Shown: positions 7,850 through 17,258 of the stretch, in pieces
Numbering within the stretch: position 1 is the stretch's first letter
Layout of the letters: every line of letters begins with the position of its first letter
Assembly (NCBI GenBank): GCA_944326705.1
Contig: CALVEY010000016.1
Coordinates: 1 to 47,728, forward strand
Reading direction: 5' to 3'
From: an uncultured Mucispirillum sp.
Lineage (GTDB): Bacteria > Chrysiogenota > Deferribacteres > Deferribacterales > Mucispirillaceae
Length of the DNA: 47,728 bases
Notes under the pieces: model-generated
Told to the model about the DNA's origin: nothing
What the model saw: only the letters and a program-made list of their open reading frames with translations
The model's database searches: none
Program-made: the position numbers and the translations under genes

Positions 7850-7878
7850 TTGACATTAAAAATGAAGTATGATAAATG
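7850..7878 (+). promoter_or_regulatory. Sigma70-type promoter of the polyamine operon or leader RNA
   Basis: A perfect -35 TTGACA lies at 7850-7855. The -10 is either GATAAA (7871-7876, 15-base spacer) or TAAATG (7873-7878, 17-base spacer). Transcription would begin near 7885, giving a leader of about 320 nt before speD. Confidence 0.55.
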
Positions 7879-7912
7879 CATGCTTTAAGTTTTAGTATTA
7901 TTAAATATACAG

Positions 7913-8099
7913 AAAACTTACCTGACCATTCTAATAATTATTTTAGAATTATGGCCATACGGACAGCCAGGTCAACTGCCGAATACTTTGATTGAGTTAA
8001 AAGCTCAAATTTTATGAGTTGGTTACTTTACAACCATGCGTGTATTTAACACAAACTTGTGAAACGGTCAATTATTTGAGAGTAGTAAGAGTAAGTTTT
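7913..8099 (+). ncRNA. Structured leader RNA upstream of speD, unknown class
   Basis: AAAACTTAC (7913-7921) pairs perfectly with GTAAGTTTT (8091-8099) and closes a 187-nt domain. Inside are a 7-bp hairpin ATTCTAA/TTAGAAT (7928-7949), a hairpin CGGACAG/CTGCCG (7960-7981) with loop CCAGGTCAA, TTGAG/CTCAA (7992-8008), TGGTT/AACCA (8020-8036) and GTGT/ACAC (8040-8052). The bases TGACC (7923-7927) can pair with GGTCA either in the second loop (7970-7974), making a pseudoknot, or at 8066-8070. A terminator-like hairpin follows at 8122. This arrangement fits a riboswitch or attenuator for polyamine genes, or an independent small RNA. It matches no riboswitch consensus I know. Confidence 0.5.
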
Positions 8100-8121
8100 T
8101 GCTGTATAGACTCTTGTTTGT

Positions 8122-8144
8122 AGTGCATTGTCTTGTGCACTTTT
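8122..8144 (+). terminator. Terminator or attenuator between leader RNA and speD
   Basis: AGTGCA (8122-8127) and TGCACT (8136-8141) form a 6-bp stem with an 8-base loop. The run TTTT (8141-8144) overlaps the last stem base. It lies 60 bases before the speD start. Confidence 0.5.
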
Positions 8145-8203
8145 ATCCCCTTTTCATTTCTTATTGTGTTAGATATCCGTAAGTATACTGGGAGATATGC
8201 TAC

Positions 8204-9016
8204 ATGGAAGACAAAATAAAACTTTACGGCTTTAATAACCTTACTAAAACATTAAGCTTTAATATTTATGATGTATGCTATGCAAAAAGCCAGAGAGAGC
8301 AGAAAGATTATATTGCATATATTGATGAGCAGTATAATTCAGAAAGGCTTACAAACATATTATGTAAAGTTACAGATATAATTGGAGCACATGTTTTAAA
8401 TGTATCTAAGCAGGATTATGACCCACAGGGTGCTTCTGTTACAATCCTTATTACTGAAGAAAAATTAGATGACCATTTAGTTGATAAATCATGCAACAGG
8501 GGAACTTATCTTCTTGCTGACAGGGAAACTGTGCTTGCTCACCTTGATAAAAGCCATGTTACAGTGCATACATATCCAGAATATCATCCAGATAATGCAA
8601 TATCTACATTTAGAGTAGATATTGATGTTTCTACATGCGGCGAAATTTCTCCACTTAATGCTCTTGATTTTTTAATTGGCAGCTTTGATTCTGATATTAT
8701 TACAATAGATTATCGTGTCCGCGGTTTTACACGCGATTTATCTGGCAAGAAATGTTATATTGACCATAATATTACATCTATTCAAGATTATATAGATGAT
8801 GCTACATTAACTAAATATGATGCAATAGATGTAAATGTGTATCAGTCAAATATATTCCACACTAAAATGCTTATAAAAGAAATAGAGCTTCAAAACTATC
8901 TTTTTAAAACAGATGTGTATGAGCTGCCACCTAAAAAGCGTTTAGAAATAACAGACAGCCTTCGCAAAGAAATGATAGAAATATTCAGCGGCACAAATAT
9001 ATATAACGAGAAATAA
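8204..9016 (+). CDS. speD: S-adenosylmethionine decarboxylase proenzyme
   Basis: Cytoplasmic pyruvoyl enzyme that decarboxylates S-adenosylmethionine to supply aminopropyl groups for spermidine. At 270 residues it matches the E. coli-type (class 1) SpeD. Residues 112-128 ([17 protein letters not shown]) contain the self-cleavage site between Lys116 and Ser117; Ser117 becomes the pyruvoyl group. The C-terminal [10 protein letters not shown] and [13 protein letters not shown] blocks are also typical. GGGAG nine bases before the ATG is the ribosome binding site. It is the first gene of the operon, two bases from the next start, and follows a structured leader with a terminator-like hairpin, suggesting control by attenuation. 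Confidence 0.95.
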
Positions 9017-9017
9017 T

Positions 9018-10463
9018 ATGCAGCAGAATATTGCACCTATATATGAAGCCTTACTTAATCATAAGAAAAAACGGGTAGTTCCTTTTGATGTGCCTGGACA
9101 TAAAGGCGGCAGGGGCACTCCCCTTTTAACAGAGTTTTTAGGTCAGGACTGCTTAAAAGTAGATGTTAACTCTATGAAGCCTCTTGATAACCTGTGCCAC
9201 CCTGTATCTGTTATATTAGAAGCAGAAAGATTAGCAGCAGATGCTTTTGGTGCGGCACATGCTTTTTTTATGGTAGGCGGCACAACTTCTTCTGTTCAGG
9301 CTATGATTATGACTGCCTGTAAATCAGGCGATAAGATAATACTTCCTAGAAATGTGCATAGAAGTGTTATTAATGCTCTTGTGGTGTGCGGTGCAGAGCC
9401 TGTATATGTTAACCCCGGCTTAAATAAAAGGCTTGGTATACCCCTTGGTATGTCAAAAGAAGATGTGGAGAAAGCTGTTAAGGCTCACCCTGAAGCAAAA
9501 GCTGTGCTTGTTAATAACCCTACATATTATGGAATATGCTCAGATATTTCTGAAATTGTGCGTATTGCCCATAATGCAGGTATGCTTGTATTAGCAGATG
9601 AAGCTCACGGCACACATTTTTATTTTGGTGATAATCTTCCTATGCCTGCAATCAAAGCAGGGGCAGATATGGCAGCAGTCAGTATGCATAAAACTGGCGG
9701 CTCACTAACCCAAAGTTCATTTTTATTAATTGGGGAAAATGTAAACCAAGGATATACAAGGCAGATTATAAACCTTACGCAGACTACAAGCGGCTCATAT
9801 CTTTTAATGAGTTCTCTTGATATTGCCAGAATGAACCTTGCATTAAATGGTAAAGAAATATTTAAAAAAACACTTGATTTAGCAGAGTATGCAAGAAATG
9901 AAATAAATAAAATAGGCGGCTATTATGCCTTTGGCAGAGAGCTTATAAATAATGATACAATATACGACTTTGACGGCACAAAACTTTCAGTTCATACTCT
10001 AGATATTGGTCTTGCTGGTATTGAAGTATATGACATTTTAAGAGATGAATATGAAATACAAATAGAGTTTGGCGATTTAGGCAACCTGCTTGCAATTATC
10101 AGTGCAGGGGATAGAGCCTTTGAAATAGAAAGACTTATATCATCACTTTCTGAAATAAAAAGACTATATGCACGCGAAAAAACTGGTATGTTTGACCATG
10201 AATATATTAATCCTGAAGTAGTGATTACTCCCCAAAAAGCCTTTTACAGCGATAAAAAATCTGTGCCTGTAAAAGAAAGCGAGAGATTAATATGCGGCGA
10301 ATTTATTATGAGTTATCCACCTGGTATTCCAATACTTGCACCAGGGGAGAGAATAACAAAAGAAATTATTGAATATATTATATATTCAAAAGAAAAAGGC
10401 TGCTCTTTAACAGGAACAGAAGATAAAAATGCAGAAAATATTAATGTATTAAAGGAGATATAA
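9018..10463 (+). CDS. Orn/Lys/Arg decarboxylase, probably arginine decarboxylase
   Basis: A PLP-dependent fold-I basic amino acid decarboxylase of 481 residues, the short form like Bacillus SpeA/YaaO without the N-terminal wing domain. Visible are the phosphate-binding VGGTTSSVQAM (86-96), DEAHGTH (194-200) and the Schiff-base lysine in SMHKTGG (Lys225). A smaller C-terminal domain begins after about residue 385. Substrate choice is inferred: the operon also encodes agmatinase, which makes sense if this enzyme turns arginine into agmatine. Lysine or ornithine cannot be excluded. It starts two bases after speD and ends one base before the speE start. Confidence 0.9.
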   Translation: MQQNIAPIYEALLNHKKKRVVPFDVPGHKGGRGTPLLTEFLGQDCLKVDVNSMKPLDNLCHPVSVILEAERLAADAFGAAHAFFMVGGTTSSVQAMIMTACKSGDKIILPRNVHRSVINALVVCGAEPVYVNPGLNKRLGIPLGMSKEDVEKAVKAHPEAKAVLVNNPTYYGICSDISEIVRIAHNAGMLVLADEAHGTHFYFGDNLPMPAIKAGADMAAVSMHKTGGSLTQSSFLLIGENVNQGYTRQIINLTQTTSGSYLLMSSLDIARMNLALNGKEIFKKTLDLAEYARNEINKIGGYYAFGRELINNDTIYDFDGTKLSVHTLDIGLAGIEVYDILRDEYEIQIEFGDLGNLLAIISAGDRAFEIERLISSLSEIKRLYAREKTGMFDHEYINPEVVITPQKAFYSDKKSVPVKESERLICGEFIMSYPPGIPILAPGERITKEIIEYIIYSKEKGCSLTGTEDKNAENINVLKEI

Positions 10464-10464
10464 A

Positions 10465-11319
10465 ATGGAATTATGGTATACAGAAGAACATTCTGAAAAT
10501 GTAAGATTTTCTATAAAAGTAGAAGAACAGTTATATTCAGCACAAAGCCCATTTCAAAGAATTGATGTATTTCAATCTAAAGAATTTGGCAGATTTTTCA
10601 CGCTTGACGGTCTTATGATGGTAACAGAAAAAGATGAGTTTATATACCATGATATGATTACTCATGTAGCTATGGCAACTAACCCAAATATTAAAAAAGT
10701 GCTTGTTATTGGTGCAGGTGACGGCGGCACTGTTAGAGAGCTTACAAGGTATTCAACTATTGAGCATATAGATATGGTAGAAATAGATAAAATGGTAGTA
10801 GATGCATGTATTAAATATCTTCCACAGACTGCATGTAAATTGAATGATGAAAGAGTAAGCCTTATTTTTGAAGACGGATTAAAATTTGTCCGCACAAAAG
10901 TTCAGGAATACGACTTAATTATAGTAGATTCTACTGACCCTTTTGGTCCTGGTGAAGGTCTTTTTACAAAAGAATTTTATGGCAACTGCTTTAACGCATT
11001 AAAAGAAGACGGCATACTTGTAAACCAGCATGAAACACCATACTATGACAGCTATGCAAAATCTATGCAGAGAGCACATAAAAGAATAAAAGAGTTTTTC
11101 CCTGTATGCAGAGTTTATCAGGCCCATATCCCTACTTATCCATCTGGGCACTGGCTTTTTGGCTTTGCTTCTAAAAAATATGACCCTGTAAAAGATTTAG
11201 ATGCTGATAAATGGAATAAATTAGGGCTTAAAACAAAATATTATAATACAGATATTCATACTGGTGCTTTTGCCCTTCCTAACTATGTTATTGATTTATT
11301 AAAGGCAAGCCATGAATAA
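10465..11319 (+). CDS. speE: Spermidine synthase
   Basis: Polyamine aminopropyltransferase of 284 residues, making spermidine from putrescine and decarboxylated S-adenosylmethionine. The N-terminal beta part precedes a Rossmann domain with VIGAGDGGTVREL (81-93), the family's GGGDG motif in a GAGDGG form. MVEID (104-108) and DLIIVDSTDPFGPGEGLF follow. AAAGGAGAT precedes the ATG. The end overlaps the agmatinase start by eight bases, so translation is probably coupled. Confidence 0.95.
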   Translation: MELWYTEEHSENVRFSIKVEEQLYSAQSPFQRIDVFQSKEFGRFFTLDGLMMVTEKDEFIYHDMITHVAMATNPNIKKVLVIGAGDGGTVRELTRYSTIEHIDMVEIDKMVVDACIKYLPQTACKLNDERVSLIFEDGLKFVRTKVQEYDLIIVDSTDPFGPGEGLFTKEFYGNCFNALKEDGILVNQHETPYYDSYAKSMQRAHKRIKEFFPVCRVYQAHIPTYPSGHWLFGFASKKYDPVKDLDADKWNKLGLKTKYYNTDIHTGAFALPNYVIDLLKASHE

Positions 11320-12163
11320 AAATATACATACATTTATCGGCTGTGATAATGAATATGATGAAAGCCAGATTGTAATATTTGGAGCACCATTTGACGGCAC
11401 TACAAGCTACCGCCCAGGCACTCGTTTTGCAGCTGCTGCTATGCGTAATGAAAGCACAGGTATAGAAACATACAGCCCGTATCAAGATAGAGATTTAGAA
11501 GATTATAATATTTTTGACGGCGGCGATTTAGAGTTTGTTTTTGGAAACCCTGCTAAAAATATTGCAATAATTAAAGAATATACAGCAGAGCTTTTAAAAG
11601 ATAATAAAATACCTGCCATGATAGGCGGCGAACATTTAGTTACACTTGGAGCAGTGCAGGCTGTTGCTGAAAAATATAATGATTTGCATATTATCCATTT
11701 TGATGCCCATGCAGATTTAAGAGATGATTATTTAGGCGAAAAATTATCTCATGCAACAGTGCTTCATAGAGTATGGGATATTGTTGGCGATAATAAAATA
11801 TTCCAGTTTGGTATAAGAAGCGGAGAAAAGGGAGAATTTGAGTTTGCAAAAAATCATACTTATATGAATAAGTTTGATATGAAAACTTTAGATGAAGTTA
11901 TTGCAAAACTTAAAAACAAGCCTGTCTATATTACTATAGATTTAGATGTGTTAGACAGCTCTGTATTTCCAGGCACAGGCACTCCAGAAGCAGGCGGCAT
12001 CACATTTAAAGAGTTAATAAATGCAATTATGCTTTTTCAAAATCTGGAAAATATAGTTGCTTTTGATATTAATGAGCTTTCACCTATGCTTGATGCAAGC
12101 GGAGCATCAACAGCCTGTGCATGCAAAGTATTAAGAGAAATGCTGCTTGCAGTTTCAAAATAA
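11312..12163 (+). CDS. speB: Agmatinase, ureohydrolase family
   Basis: Manganese-dependent ureohydrolase of 283 residues, expected to split agmatine into putrescine and urea. The metal ligands are all present: GGEH (His108), HFDAHADLRDD (Asp131, His133, Asp135) and ITIDLDVLD (Asp210, Asp212), followed by the PGTGTPEAGG loop. With the upstream decarboxylase this gives the arginine-agmatine-putrescine route, and SpeD/SpeE then make spermidine. It is the last gene of the operon. The hairpin right after its stop is one of two copies flanking an inserted-looking segment. Confidence 0.92.
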   Translation: MNKNIHTFIGCDNEYDESQIVIFGAPFDGTTSYRPGTRFAAAAMRNESTGIETYSPYQDRDLEDYNIFDGGDLEFVFGNPAKNIAIIKEYTAELLKDNKIPAMIGGEHLVTLGAVQAVAEKYNDLHIIHFDAHADLRDDYLGEKLSHATVLHRVWDIVGDNKIFQFGIRSGEKGEFEFAKNHTYMNKFDMKTLDEVIAKLKNKPVYITIDLDVLDSSVFPGTGTPEAGGITFKELINAIMLFQNLENIVAFDINELSPMLDASGASTACACKVLREMLLAVSK

Positions 12164-12384: not shown

Positions 12385-12405
12385 CCCTTTAATAAGGGCT
12401 TAATT
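12385..12405 (-). terminator. Terminator hairpin after nikE, copy 2
   Basis: Second copy of the 21-base terminator sequence. Read on the minus strand it forms AGCCCTT/AAGGGTT followed by TTTT, suitable for ending the nik operon. Confidence 0.6.
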
Positions 12406-13160
12406 TATACTATCATCATATTTTTAAAGCTGTCACTAGGGTTATTTATCCCCTGCTCTATAAAAAATCTGTCTTTTATTATACCGTTTTCTAAAAATAT
12501 AATATCATCGCACAGTTTTAGTATTATTCTTATATCATGAGATATTACAAGATATGAAAGCTTATATTTTTCCTTTAATTCTTCTAACAGTTTAATAATT
12601 TCTGCCTGTATTATCATATCAAGACTGCTTAATGCTTCATCAAGTATTAAAAGTTTAGGCTGCACAGATAATGCTCTTGCAATAGCCACTCTCTGCTGCT
12701 CGCCGCCGCTTAAGTGAGTAATATTCTTATACATTTTATCTTCGCTGAGCTTTACTGCAGAAAGCAGATTAAGAACAATATCTTTTATTTCATCTTTTGT
12801 ATAATTATAATAATTTTCAATGGGTTCTTTTATCACATCATATACAGTAAACTGTGGATTCATAGAGCTTTGGGGGTCTTGAAACACTACCTGCATATCT
12901 TTATATACATTTTTTAATTCATTATATTTTAAGCTGTGTATATCTTTACCCATAAATGTAACAGTGCCTTCTGTTGCTTTTTCAAGGCCTAATATTATAC
13001 GCATAAGTGTGCTTTTACCTGCTCCATTTCTGCCTGCAAATCCCATACTTCTGCCCTGCTTTAAGTGAAAGGATATATTTTCAAGCACTTTTATACTTTC
13101 TTTTTTTGAAAACCAGCTGTTATCATTATATATTTTAGTAATATTCTCACATTTCAGCAT
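12405..13160 (-). CDS. nikE: Nickel ABC transporter ATP-binding protein NikE
   Basis: The second ATPase of the importer, 251 residues. It has Walker A GRNGAGKST (43-51), Q-loop VVFQDPQSSMNP, signature LSGGEQQR and Walker B LLILDEALSSLD, then the switch histidine in SHDIR. It is of the Opp/Dpp/Nik peptide-nickel class, and the name rests on the clear NikA in the same operon. It overlaps nikD by 14 bases and is the last gene before the terminator. Confidence 0.88.
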   Translation of the reverse strand: MLKCENITKIYNDNSWFSKKESIKVLENISFHLKQGRSMGFAGRNGAGKSTLMRIILGLEKATEGTVTFMGKDIHSLKYNELKNVYKDMQVVFQDPQSSMNPQFTVYDVIKEPIENYYNYTKDEIKDIVLNLLSAVKLSEDKMYKNITHLSGGEQQRVAIARALSVQPKLLILDEALSSLDMIIQAEIIKLLEELKEKYKLSYLVISHDIRIILKLCDDIIFLENGIIKDRFFIEQGINNPSDSFKNMMIV

Positions 13161-13938
13161 AATTTTCTCCTAAGTCAATATTCCACTTATTAGTATAAAG
13201 CCTGTTATTTGCAGCAATCAGCTCTTTTGTATATTTATGGCGGTTTTCTGCTAACAGCTCATTTTTATTAAAAATATCTACAAGTCTGCCCTTATCCATA
13301 ACTGCAATTTTATCTGCACAGCTTTTTGCAACTGCAAGATTATGGGTTATCATAAGCACTGCTTTATTTTCCTGCTTTAATTTTAATATTAAATCAATAA
13401 TTTCTTTCTGACCTGTAATATCTAAATCAGATGTTGGCTCATCTGCTATAATAATTTTGCTGTCAAGAGATAATGCTATTGTAATCATTACCCTTTGAAG
13501 CATACCGCCTGATAACTGAAATGGATATGAATTTAAAATATCATGCGGGTTTTTAAGCTCCACTTTTTCTAGTTCTGCACATACTTTATCAATAGAATAT
13601 TCTTTATTATTAGACAGCAATATATCTTTAAACTGAGCGCCTATTGTAAAAACGCTGTCAAAACATGAAGCTGGCGACTGCATAATCATACTTATAAATG
13701 AGCCCCGCATATTTTCATCAAATGGCTTATCATCATATAATATAGTGCCTGAAGTCTGCATAACATTTAAGGGCAGCATATTTAAAATAGAGAGAGCTGT
13801 CATAGTTTTACCAGAGCCAGACTGACCTAAAAGACACACAATTTCCCCTTCATTTATATCAAAAGATATGTTATGAAGTATCTGATACTTATTAGTGCCA
13901 GCTGATAAATCATTAATACTTATTAACTTTTTACACAT
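13147..13938 (-). CDS. nikD: Nickel ABC transporter ATP-binding protein NikD
   Basis: First ATPase, 263 residues. Walker A is GQSGSGKTM (about 38-46), the Q-loop is SMIMQSPASCFDSVFTIG, the signature LSGGMLQR and Walker B IIIADEPTSDLD. The C-terminal extension of the peptide-nickel ATPase class (RLVDIFNKNEL onward) is shorter than in OppD. It overlaps nikC by 16 bases and nikE by 14, so the operon is translationally coupled. Confidence 0.88.
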   Translation of the reverse strand: MCKKLISINDLSAGTNKYQILHNISFDINEGEIVCLLGQSGSGKTMTALSILNMLPLNVMQTSGTILYDDKPFDENMRGSFISMIMQSPASCFDSVFTIGAQFKDILLSNNKEYSIDKVCAELEKVELKNPHDILNSYPFQLSGGMLQRVMITIALSLDSKIIIADEPTSDLDITGQKEIIDLILKLKQENKAVLMITHNLAVAKSCADKIAVMDKGRLVDIFNKNELLAENRHKYTKELIAANNRLYTNKWNIDLGENYAEM

Positions 13939-14771
13939 AATTCACTCTCGCTGCTGCTAAATTCTTTTGTTTCATACCTATCTCTTAACTTTTCGCCTAT
14001 ACTGTTAAACACTGCAACTGTAATAAATATGCAGATACCGGGATAAATCATTAATTCAGGGTGCTCTCTAATATATGGTGCTGCATCATTTATCATAACG
14101 CCCCATTCTGCTGTTGGTGCCTGCACTCCAAGTCCTAAAAAACTAAGCCCTGCCACATGAAGCATCATATGCCCTAAATCTAATGTGGCTAAAATTATAA
14201 CTTGAGATAATACCTTTGGCATAATATGCTTTAAGACAATTTTAAGCCTTGATGAACCAGAACATTTTGCAGCTGTAACATAGTTTTTCTGTTTTGTTTC
14301 AAGTACTATACTTCGGACAATACGAGCATACCATGCCCAGTGAGTTAAGGCTATTGCAATGATTACATTTATTAGTCCAACACCTAATACACCTATAAAA
14401 AATAGGGCAAGTATAAATGTAGGAAATGTAAGAAATACATCGCATATTCTCATTAATATGCTGTCAAAAAGTCCACCGCGAAAGCCTGCTATACTTCCTA
14501 CTATTAAAGAAAGAAAAAGCACTAATAATATAGTTGCTAAAACACTTATTAAAGACATTCTTGTACCGTATATTATTCTTGAAAATACATCTCTGCCTAA
14601 ATGGTCAGTCCCTAAAATATGGCTGGAAGTAACAGGTGCAAATTTATTTGTTAAATCTACATCATATGGGTTATATGGAGCAATTAACGGAGCAAATAAT
14701 GCACTTAATATAATAATGGCAAGTAATGAAAAAAGTATAATTAATCCTTTGTCTTTCATGTTATGCTCCAT
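13923..14771 (-). CDS. nikC: Nickel ABC transporter permease NikC
   Basis: Inner-membrane permease of the DppC/OppC type, 282 residues. A first helix (8-29) is followed by the typical linker APYNPYDVDLTNKFAP and GTDHLGRDVFSRI. About five more helices follow, with the EAA-type loop AAKCSGSSRLKIVLKHIMP contacting the ATPases. It overlaps nikB by 11 bases and nikD by 16. Confidence 0.88.
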   Translation of the reverse strand: MEHNMKDKGLIILFSLLAIIILSALFAPLIAPYNPYDVDLTNKFAPVTSSHILGTDHLGRDVFSRIIYGTRMSLISVLATILLVLFLSLIVGSIAGFRGGLFDSILMRICDVFLTFPTFILALFFIGVLGVGLINVIIAIALTHWAWYARIVRSIVLETKQKNYVTAAKCSGSSRLKIVLKHIMPKVLSQVIILATLDLGHMMLHVAGLSFLGLGVQAPTAEWGVMINDAAPYIREHPELMIYPGICIFITVAVFNSIGEKLRDRYETKEFSSSESELCVKS

Positions 14772-15693
14772 ATTTTATTTTAGGGTTTAAATAAACATAT
14801 ATTATATCTATAATTAAGTTTACTATTATAAATACACCAGTCATTAGTATCATAAAGCACTGTATAACTGGATAGTCATGGTTAGTGATAGATGAAACAA
14901 CATATCTTCCAACTCCAGGCAGAGCAAAAAGCACTTCCACCACAACTGCCCCGCCTATTAACTCACCAAAATGCATACCAAGGGAAGTAATCACAGGAAG
15001 CATTGAATTTTTAAGCACATATTTTCCCATAACAGTATTTTTATGCACGCCATTTACTTTTAAATACCATACAGAGCGGTTATTAATATGCTCTAAAAAG
15101 CTTGTTCTTGTAATACGGGTATTAATAGCGCTTGACATTAAGCCAAGAGTTAAAATAGGCATAATCCAGCTGGAAATGCCCTCTAACCCAAAAGGCGGCA
15201 GAATATTTAATTTTAATGCAAATAAATATATAAGCAGAAATCCAAACCAAAAACTAGGGGTAGATACGCCAATAAATGAGAAAAATTTTATTAATTTATC
15301 TGCCAGACTGTCTTTTTTAACTGCTCCTAAAATACCCAGCGGTATACTTACAATTATGACTACTATCATAGCTAAAAATGTAACTTTTAATGTAGTAGGA
15401 AAATAATACATTAAATCGCCAAAAGCATCTCGTTTAGTCATATAAGACATTCCAAAATCAAGCTGCACTGCACCTTTAAGCCATAAAGCATATTGAGTAA
15501 AAAATGGCTTATCAAGCCCTAGTTCTGCCCTTGTAACTGCTAGAGCTTCTTCTGTTGGCGGTATTCTTGAATTAAGCAGGTATGCCTGTGCTGGGTCAAC
15601 TGGTCCAAGTCTAAGCACAGTAAACACAATAAATGATACTGCAAACATCACAGGTATAATAAGCAGAAGTCGTTTTACAATATATTTAATCAT
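14761..15693 (-). CDS. nikB: Nickel ABC transporter permease NikB
   Basis: Inner-membrane permease of the DppB/OppB type, 310 residues with six predicted helices. It begins YIVKRLLLIIPVMFAVSFIVF, the family's N-terminal helix, and has a long periplasmic loop (about 32-95). The conserved cytoplasmic loop contains LKVNGVHKNTVMGKYVLKN and the end GVGRYVVSSITNHDYPVIQ is typical. It overlaps nikA by eight bases at its start and nikC by 11 bases at its end. Confidence 0.88.
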   Translation of the reverse strand: MIKYIVKRLLLIIPVMFAVSFIVFTVLRLGPVDPAQAYLLNSRIPPTEEALAVTRAELGLDKPFFTQYALWLKGAVQLDFGMSYMTKRDAFGDLMYYFPTTLKVTFLAMIVVIIVSIPLGILGAVKKDSLADKLIKFFSFIGVSTPSFWFGFLLIYLFALKLNILPPFGLEGISSWIMPILTLGLMSSAINTRITRTSFLEHINNRSVWYLKVNGVHKNTVMGKYVLKNSMLPVITSLGMHFGELIGGAVVVEVLFALPGVGRYVVSSITNHDYPVIQCFMILMTGVFIIVNLIIDIIYVYLNPKIKYGA

Positions 15694-17242
15694 TATAAGG
15701 CTCCAGAGTATGCAGCATAAATTCTGTTACCATATTACCAAACTGGAAGTTTTTCACTCTGTCTTTTCTTACAAGTGCTAAATCCAGCTCGTAGCTGATA
15801 GGAAGATATACTGCTTCATTATGGAAAATATTAAGTATTTCTTTATATTTTTCTGTAATATTTGTATTATTATCTGATATGATTAATTGGCTTATCATAT
15901 TATCAATATCTGCTTTTTCTTTCAGTCCCCTTTGTGCCTGATAATCTGCATGAGATGGTTTTCTCATACTTCCTGCAAAAGTGCCAGGGTCAAAAGGCGG
16001 TCCCCATGTTTTATTAAATATCATATCAAAGCTGCCGTTTGCCTGTAAGCTGTAAAAAATAGTGCTTTCTTCAGCTACTAAATTAAGCTTAATTCCTGCC
16101 TGCATTAAATCAGCCTGAATAATTTCTGCCATAGCTTTTTGTTTTGGGTCTATTCCTATATAGTGCATATCTATAGATAATACTTGACCGTCTTTTTCTC
16201 TATATAGGCCTTTTTTCTTCCAGCCTGCATTTTCTAATATTTCATTTGCTTTTTTAATGTTATATTCATAAGGAATAATGCCAGCATTACAGTATTCAAG
16301 CTCTGGATTAAATATCTGCTCTGCCTTTATTTCCTGATTAAGTAAAATATATTTTATAATATTATCTTTATTTACTGCCATCATAACGGCTTTTCTAACA
16401 TTTACATCTTTTGTATTATTCCTTGCAGTATTTAGTGCAACCATATTTGTTACTCTTGGCTCAGATTTATAAGCTGCAATATCTTTATTTTTAGACAGAC
16501 GGACAAAATTTTCAATAGTAAAGCTGCCCTCCCCTAAAAGCATATCTATTTTACCAGTTTCTAAAGCAATTATTCTGCTGTTTGCATCAGGCAGCACTAA
16601 AACTTTTACATATTTATATTTTGGCTTTTGTCCCCAGTAGTATTCATTTCTTTCAAAGATATCATATTCCCCAAGTTTTGTTTCTATAAGCTTCCAAGGT
16701 CCTGAACCAATAGGTGCTTTTATACCTTTGCTTGTATCTTTATTATCTAAAAAGCCATTTGGAGCAAGTATTCTAAAAGGACGGGCAACACTTAATTCTT
16801 TTAAAGTAAGGTTATAAGGTTTTGAAAGTTTAAGTATAAATGTTTTATCATCTTTTGCAGAAAAACTTTCTATCATGCTGACTAATGCTATCCAGCTGTG
16901 GCGTGCTTTATTCTGCATAACTGCATTAAAATTCATTACTACTGCATAAGCTGTCACAGGACTTCCGTCAGAAAATTTTGCATTACGCAGTTTAAATGTA
17001 TAAGTTAATCCGTCATCACTTATGCTCCAGCTTTCTGCCAGAGCGCCCTCCATACCATCTGGTGTATAGCGCACAAGGCTGTCATATACCATAGTTTGTG
17101 CATACATTTGGTTTGGATTATATAAATGCGGGTTTAATGGTCCAGCATTTACTGGATATGCTATTGTTAATGTGCTGTCATCTTGAGCATAAACTGTTGT
17201 GGATAATAAGAAAATAAAGAAAATGATTATAAACTTCTTCAT
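15686..17242 (-). CDS. nikA: Periplasmic nickel-binding protein NikA
   Basis: Extracytoplasmic solute-binding protein, about 518 residues with a signal peptide (about 1-19, ending VYA). It resembles E. coli NikA closely from memory: VNAGPLNPHLYNPNQM near the N-terminus, ARPFRILAP, GIKAPIGSGPWKL, then KTWGPPFDPGTFAGSMR and PSHADYQAQRGL. This is nearer NikA than DppA or OppA. NikA binds a nickel-chelator complex in the periplasm and delivers it to NikBC. I chose the second ATG (17242) because GAGGT lies at better spacing. It is the first gene of the operon behind a NikR-like operator. Confidence 0.9.
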   Translation of the reverse strand: MKKFIIIFFIFLLSTTVYAQDDSTLTIAYPVNAGPLNPHLYNPNQMYAQTMVYDSLVRYTPDGMEGALAESWSISDDGLTYTFKLRNAKFSDGSPVTAYAVVMNFNAVMQNKARHSWIALVSMIESFSAKDDKTFILKLSKPYNLTLKELSVARPFRILAPNGFLDNKDTSKGIKAPIGSGPWKLIETKLGEYDIFERNEYYWGQKPKYKYVKVLVLPDANSRIIALETGKIDMLLGEGSFTIENFVRLSKNKDIAAYKSEPRVTNMVALNTARNNTKDVNVRKAVMMAVNKDNIIKYILLNQEIKAEQIFNPELEYCNAGIIPYEYNIKKANEILENAGWKKKGLYREKDGQVLSIDMHYIGIDPKQKAMAEIIQADLMQAGIKLNLVAEESTIFYSLQANGSFDMIFNKTWGPPFDPGTFAGSMRKPSHADYQAQRGLKEKADIDNMISQLIISDNNTNITEKYKEILNIFHNEAVYLPISYELDLALVRKDRVKNFQFGNMVTEFMLHTLEPYND

Positions 17243-17258
17243 CATATACCTCTTTATT

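Follow-up and report, generated by a model that had tools for sequence, protein, structure and literature searches.

A conserved leader RNA of polyamine operons in at least four bacterial phyla, a candidate polyamine riboswitch upstream of speD

Introduction

Within the window, i.e., the whole stretch of 47,728 nucleotides analysed here from an uncultured Mucispirillum sp., a gap of 670 bases lies ahead of a four-gene operon on the forward strand. Named with NCBIfam, these genes are in order (i) speD, encoding an S-adenosylmethionine (SAM) decarboxylase of the E. coli type (8204-9016; TIGR03331, 434 bits, cut-off 256), (ii) a gene of the Orn/Lys/Arg decarboxylase family labelled Cad (9018-10463; best NCBIfam match LdcC with 106 bits, below cut-off), which is probably speA, (iii) speE, encoding spermidine synthase (10465-11319; TIGR00417, 322 bits, cut-off 250), and (iv) speB, encoding agmatinase (11312-12163; TIGR01230, 279 bits, cut-off 174), all on the forward strand. 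The polyamine operon is adjoined by a minus-strand ABC transporter cluster (12405-17245), which is nickel/peptide-like (best NCBIfam match NikE, below cut-off).

Polyamines have long been expected as riboswitch ligands. The proven polyamine riboswitch is a single class, namely the SAM-I-variant spermidine riboswitch, whose 13 members come from a handful of Gram-positive genera (Salvail et al., 2023; PMC10853860). A first-pass annotation of the window, made from the letters only, had proposed that the gap holds the metabolite-sensing leader of the polyamine operon, and the reading is followed up here through the layout of the leader, its homologues, its structure, the genes it precedes and its putative expression platforms.

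Results

Promoter and leader layout

Upstream of speD, a promoter at 7850-7878 (forward strand) is composed of a -35 box TTGACA (7850-7855), a 17-nt spacer ending with TGn and a -10 box TAAATG (7873-7878); in the alignment of the window's genus, TTGACA and TGnTAAA are kept in 7/7 members. On account of this conserved promoter, the transcript is predicted to start near 7885, which agrees with the start at about 7885 put forward in the first-pass annotation. The ribosome-binding site of speD is GGGAGA at 8190-8195, recognised from the sequence and the genus alignment. In between, the leader 7885-8203 folds better than shuffled sequences (z -2.4, with 2/200 shuffles equally good), and there is a real folded leader at 7885-8203, i.e., the 5' leader of the speD-decarboxylase-speE-speB mRNA. 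Across the genus, a 5' segment is perfectly conserved (AAGTTTTAGTATTAT, within 7886-7920); the upstream TAAGTTTT (7886-7893) can pair with the 5' strand of helix P1 described below, as in the alternative hairpin of the minimum free energy fold, and in the genus this modelled pairing is a possible early-forming competitor of P1.

A match to an Rfam small RNA

A part of the leader, 7923-7982 on the forward strand, matches RF02440 (SpF59_sRNA, also called ldcC RNA) with 66.5 bits against a gathering cut-off of 37.2 (E 6.9e-10), and the match spans model positions 1-54 of 54, which makes it a member of the family. RF02440 is the single Rfam RNA in the whole window: a cmscan of 7851-8250 at E up to 1 returned this family and no second one, and at Rfam gathering scores 17 relatives likewise returned RF02440 alone. 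With its 54 positions, the model corresponds to about a quarter of a conserved RNA of ~200 nt. Conservation indeed runs well past it, to ~8114 in window terms; over its 3' part (7988-8113), the window RNA shares 83% identity with copies from Bacillus or Paenibacillus.

The RNA from which RF02440 derives is F59, identical to SN20 and srn235, located between SP0915 and SP0916 of Streptococcus pneumoniae (PMC2887815; PMC3395615); it also goes by the names F59, srn235 and M7 (PMC3395615; PMC12323649), and the F59/SN20/srn235 "sRNA" was listed as affecting lung fitness (PMC4387999). As in the window, where the same RNA is found, the pneumococcal copy lies upstream of a decarboxylase gene, SP0916. 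Two differences separate the window from the entry as it stands: RF02440 is typed "Gene; sRNA" and names no ligand, whereas the window RNA is read here as an mRNA leader, and most Bacillota copies of the family possess a hairpin P3 and a terminator, both of which the window copy lacks. Read from the alignments, the RF02440 entry is a truncated piece of a polyamine-operon leader. The first-pass annotation had held that a known Rfam match to something else would speak against its idea; formally such a match occurred, to an "sRNA", and it leaves the idea uncontradicted since the entry is a piece of that very leader. The Rfam alias "ldcC RNA" suggests earlier recognition as a leader by others. The main text of the pneumococcal transcriptome papers does not discuss the RNA, and a literature search of limited coverage returned no description of the "ldcC RNA"/SpF59 leader as a riboswitch.

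Distribution of the RNA

To find homologues, 84,980 species genomes were scanned with a degenerate pattern of 21 bases, which required a 16-base core and TGCCG and used no gene information; at least 118 loci were obtained. In addition, the RF02440 covariance model was run on genome samples, of which 18/398 in Bacillota, 7/121 in Synergistota and 7/198 in Spirochaetota were positive, the sample loci including a few repeats of earlier species. With the exception of L139 and L141, the copies recovered with this model differ from the 16-base core at 0-2 positions. Altogether, at least 140 copies were found, in gut, rumen and soil bacteria, and conservation of the RNA extends over Bacillota, Synergistota, Spirochaetota and the genus of the window, i.e., at least four phyla. 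No exact match to the pattern was present in viral contigs and no BLAST match in phage records, while plasmid records gave one match, on a 2.7-Mb Paenibacillus replicon.

In the window's own phylum, the RNA occurs in the window's genus only, in 7/10 species. There it is found together with speD in 7 species, both being undetected in 3, and among the tested genomes of the phylum speD is found solely where the RNA is present. In a SpeD tree, the genus groups with Synergistota and part of Spirochaetota (95/94 support). From this grouping together with the co-occurrence of the RNA and speD, operon and leader seem to move jointly between phyla, and in the genus the speD operon (8204-12163) with its leader looks horizontally acquired.

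Structure and covariation

The conserved leader RNA, a candidate aptamer domain with helices P1-P7, extends over 7907-8114 on the forward strand, as delimited by cross-phylum conservation and structure counts. For a structure of 58 pairs, defined on a single Paenibacillus copy, pairing was counted in 64 sequences. Standard pairs occupy 88.4% of cells versus 82.7% in shuffled alignments, both partners have changed in 36 pairs versus 20.5, and covariation scores 0.213 versus 0.128; on all five measures 0/500 shuffles reach the observed values. Covariation in the leaders of relatives, which the first-pass annotation had named as a check, is thus found, in the helices of a conserved, aptamer-like core. 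In a slid control, moving the partner by 1-3 columns brought pairing down to 32-43%. The best supported helices are P2, P2a, P3, P5 and P6a, while P6, P4 and P7 are 93-97% paired with little variation. RNAalifold, run on the first alignment, recovered only a minority of the helices.

The domain is closed by P1, whose 5' strand (7907-7921) holds AAAACTTAC at 7913-7921 and pairs with a 3' strand at 8091-8107. The perfect 9-bp stem noticed at the outset, 7913-7921 with 8091-8099, is indeed fully complementary and forms part of this longer helix. On the MAFFT alignment P1 is 47% paired column-wise; the flanks misalign there and P1 was therefore judged by duplex energy, the strands giving -14.7 kcal/mol within versus -11.8 between sequences (p=9e-13, 113 homologues).

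Next to P1, helix P2 is formed by TGACC (7923-7927) and GGTCA (7970-7974), with 99% of cells paired and the strongest covariation of the alignment (closing pair UA 32, GC 19, CG 6). The first-pass annotation had seen in this pairing a pseudoknot; the pairing is real, being complete in 56/59 sequences outside the genus, but the helix is nested. Its proposed competitor, the same TGACC with GGTCA at 8066-8070, is complete in just 23/59 sequences. P2 encloses hairpin P2a (7928-7949; 7928-7934 with 7943-7949), with both sides changed in 5/5 counted pairs. The most conserved segment is GGCCATACGGACAGCC...TGCCGA (7953-7982), invariant in alignment A1, in part by construction, since most rows had been retrieved with a pattern that demanded its first 16 bases and TGCCG. 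This segment is likely part of the putative ligand site. A hairpin P3 is present in nearly all other copies and absent (7983-7987) in 7/7 members of the window's genus.

P4 (7988-8071; 7988-7992 with 8067-8071, 93-96% paired) closes a domain holding P5 and P6. Hairpin P5 (7993-8007; 7993-7997 with 8003-8007) has both-side changes in 5/5 pairs and is complete in 48/56 sequences; its 3' side includes the CTCA (8004-8007) to which an alternative downstream partner, TGAG at 8015-8018, had been ascribed, a pairing found in 1/57 sequences. P6 (8013-8061; 8013-8020 with 8054-8061) is 97% paired and contains P6a (8021-8024 with 8032-8035, 93% paired) and P6b (8040-8043 with 8049-8052, 56% paired where the alignment is poor). 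Lastly, P7 (8079-8114) pairs AGAGT at 8079-8083 with ACTCT at 8110-8114 in 95% of cells with little variation; as it crosses P1, P7 is either a pseudoknot or an alternative pairing. The sequences quoted in the first-pass annotation were all found where it placed them.

Association with polyamine genes

Among the matches listed, nearly all from the scan by sequence only, the first downstream gene belongs to the polyamine set in 118 of the 119 testable loci, i.e., those with at least 450 bases downstream. In the remaining one (L020), the first residues of a decarboxylase are readable and the stored DNA then ends inside the gene. The genes following the RNA are speD, the Orn/Lys/Arg decarboxylase gene, carboxynorspermidine synthase with nspC, and potABCD, the first gene among the listed loci being SpeD in 43 cases, the decarboxylase (Cad) in 38, carboxynorspermidine synthase in 21 and PotA in 16. 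While nspC, which comes after carboxynorspermidine synthase, and PotA score above NCBIfam cut-offs, carboxynorspermidine synthase reaches 418 bits to its NCBIfam family, under the strict cut-off of 800. The covariance-model samples gave the same result, the same polyamine genes coming next in 17/17 additional loci of Bacillota and in every testable locus of Synergistota and Spirochaetota. The RNA thus lies in cis, in many lineages, ahead of genes that share a single metabolic theme.

Terminator and antiterminator in three phyla

Between the RNA and the gene, an intrinsic terminator is present in 77/118 listed loci versus 0 in shuffled sequence. Its 5' arm can base-pair with the P6 3' strand, the energy being -9.7 kcal/mol, against -5.2 kcal/mol when the arm is shuffled (p=3e-13); tested within versus between sequences, this antiterminator gets weak support (p=0.024), as there is little variation in the aptamer strand. 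Where it does vary, the arm follows: CTTGTA in place of CTTGTG in the aptamer goes with T in place of C at the partner base of the arm (Fisher p=0.0014), and the pairing AACTTG:CAAGTT of Bacillota copies is replaced on both sides, by GTACTTG:CAAGTAC, in Synergistota and Spirochaetota. A mutually exclusive expression platform is therefore found in copies from Bacillota, Synergistota and Spirochaetota.

As deduced from these pairings, with P6 open its 3' strand would form the antiterminator and the genes would be ON, while with P6 formed the terminator would be free and the genes OFF. Ligand binding would lock P6, making its 3' strand unavailable to the 5' arm of the terminator, and transcription would stop; by stabilising the aptamer, the ligand would have the genes repressed by their own end product. 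The exchange between terminator and P6 is fitting for such a ligand-triggered OFF switch.

Some copies depart from this organisation. In one Ruminococcaceae metagenome-assembled genome (MAG; L017:4401-4640), most of P6-P7 is missing between core and terminator, by deletion or assembly error. Four Clostridiales/Ruminococcaceae MAGs (L107, L123, L047 and L074) carry a shorter form of the RNA that lacks a terminator, and their start codon lies ~235 nt away from the core; this subgroup possibly represents another translational platform.

A different platform in the window's genus

No terminator was found in the window copy by terminator scan or genus alignment, and the Bacillota-type terminator is absent in the genus. 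The hairpin at 8122-8144 ahead of speD, to which the first-pass annotation had attributed a terminator-like role, is not conserved as such: the scan does not call it, its sequence is not kept in the genus and one member (L002) lacks the U-run. Instead, a switching strand TTGTGTTAGATATCC at 8164-8178 (forward strand) is complementary to the aptamer arm 8040-8054, and the duplex is better than expected from shuffles in 7/7 genus members (z -2.6 to -4.6, at most 9/500 shuffles equally good). This is a repeated complementarity, not classical covariation, because the aptamer side is identical and the downstream side differs. In most members, 20-24 nt separate the switching strand from the start codon.

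In the genus, the aptamer arm 8040-8054 would thus compete for 8164-8178 just ahead of the ribosome-binding site, and from this position control is probably translational. This step is proposed tentatively, since a hairpin blocking the ribosome-binding site is significant in two members only (L005 and L006) and not in the window, where it gives z -0.1 versus shuffles. For the window copy, the mutually exclusive structure supported is accordingly the competing helix, not the ribosome-site hairpin.

Discussion

The conserved structure, the exclusive link with polyamine genes and the competing pairings documented above by sequence comparison point to a riboswitch. With a probability of roughly 0.78, we infer that this aptamer-like RNA of ~200 nt directly binds a polyamine, spermidine being the leading candidate, and shuts the operon down when this compound is abundant. 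The first-pass annotation's metabolite-sensing leader thereby gains strong support, from the gene association, the covariation and the switchable platforms of relatives, while most of the structural features it had cited (pseudoknot, both alternative pairings and terminator) do not hold. As for the ligand, three routes are served by the downstream genes, namely SAM decarboxylase with spermidine synthase, the carboxyspermidine route to spermidine, and import by PotABCD; a polyamine, mainly spermidine, is favoured because these unrelated gene sets share polyamines only. The list of ligands proposed at first retains its polyamines, with putrescine possible, and loses SAM, arginine and agmatine, which are unlikely as they are not common to all three gene sets, the RNA being also found before carboxynorspermidine-pathway and potABCD genes.

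The evidence bearing on the ligand and on the nature of the leader has to be set against other explanations. A riboswitch for a ligand other than spermidine, i.e., putrescine, agmatine, cadaverine, SAM, decarboxylated SAM or methylthioadenosine, is unlikely: several of these compounds are made or used by the window operon, and systems of the potABCD type import putrescine as well as spermidine, but the leaders before carboxynorspermidine synthase/decarboxylase and potABCD genes involve neither SAM derivatives nor agmatine, and spermidine is the common product or cargo. Leaders bound by proteins are sometimes large and conserved too, and the present one could in principle be read by a polyamine-responsive RNA-binding protein or a ribosomal factor in place of a metabolite; such a protein would however need to be common to four phyla and to genera having the RNA at one operon only, and long invariant unpaired stretches with mutually exclusive helices are typical of aptamers, which makes this explanation very improbable.

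There is slightly less to be said still for a trans-acting small RNA merely encoded before polyamine genes. It would agree with the Rfam type "Gene; sRNA" and with the pneumococcal data, where the homologue SN20 upstream of SP0916 (F59/srn235/M7 in PMC3395615 and PMC12323649) appeared on tiling arrays as a discrete transcript of 318 nt, with both a promoter and a terminator predicted for it (PMC2887815). A discrete transcript, though, is just what would be expected of an attenuated leader ending at its terminator; a trans-acting RNA need not stay by polyamine genes, as every testable copy does in four phyla and in the same orientation, nor does it account for a 3' part competing with the gene's own terminator. 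Hardly credible at all is a translated leader peptide, as in the odc1 or speF leaders: a 39-codon ATG frame does cross the element (7876-7995), but the spacers between conserved blocks are spread over the three frames (46/42/37, 50/38/29 and 53/32/26), and the odc1 motif itself, a hairpin of alphaproteobacteria, carries an upstream open reading frame of 11 codons (uORF; PMC8632094).

The putative spermidine-responsive leader can also be compared with known systems. Like the window RNA, the SAM-I-variant spermidine riboswitch is found before polyamine biosynthesis genes and is OFF with spermidine by an exchange of terminator and antiterminator, as predicted here; it differs in sequence, helices and length, and the window RNA is present in four phyla. 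An identity of the two was rejected, no SAM-I (RF00162-like) match being obtained at E up to 1. The odc1 motif (Brewer et al., 2021; PMC8632094) is likewise the leader RNA of a polyamine gene, though a single long alphaproteobacterial hairpin with a pseudoknot and a conserved uORF, whereas the window RNA has no conserved uORF; an identity with the odc1 uORF element was discarded, as the reading frame across the window RNA is not conserved. The speF RNA motif, also a putative cis-acting element before a polyamine gene, is alphaproteobacterial, and no metabolite binding was detected for it (PMC11477304); the window RNA has no Rfam match to it. A lead concerning "C. difficile speF" proved unrelated to the window RNA.

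A fragment of this RNA family was known before; the RNA in full length, its exclusive polyamine context in four phyla, the antiterminator pairing and the probably different output in the window's genus come from the present comparison. On the whole, the comparison leans towards a second, unrelated and much more widespread class of spermidine/polyamine riboswitch, hidden in Rfam, distributed over at least four phyla before three unrelated gene sets, and with an output that would have moved from termination to translation in the genus. If so, the pneumococcal F59/SN20/srn235 "sRNA" would be re-annotated as an mRNA leader. Even ahead of any experiment, the gene contexts narrow the choice of ligand, and a class of at least 140 copies would make the control of polyamines in bacteria directly testable.
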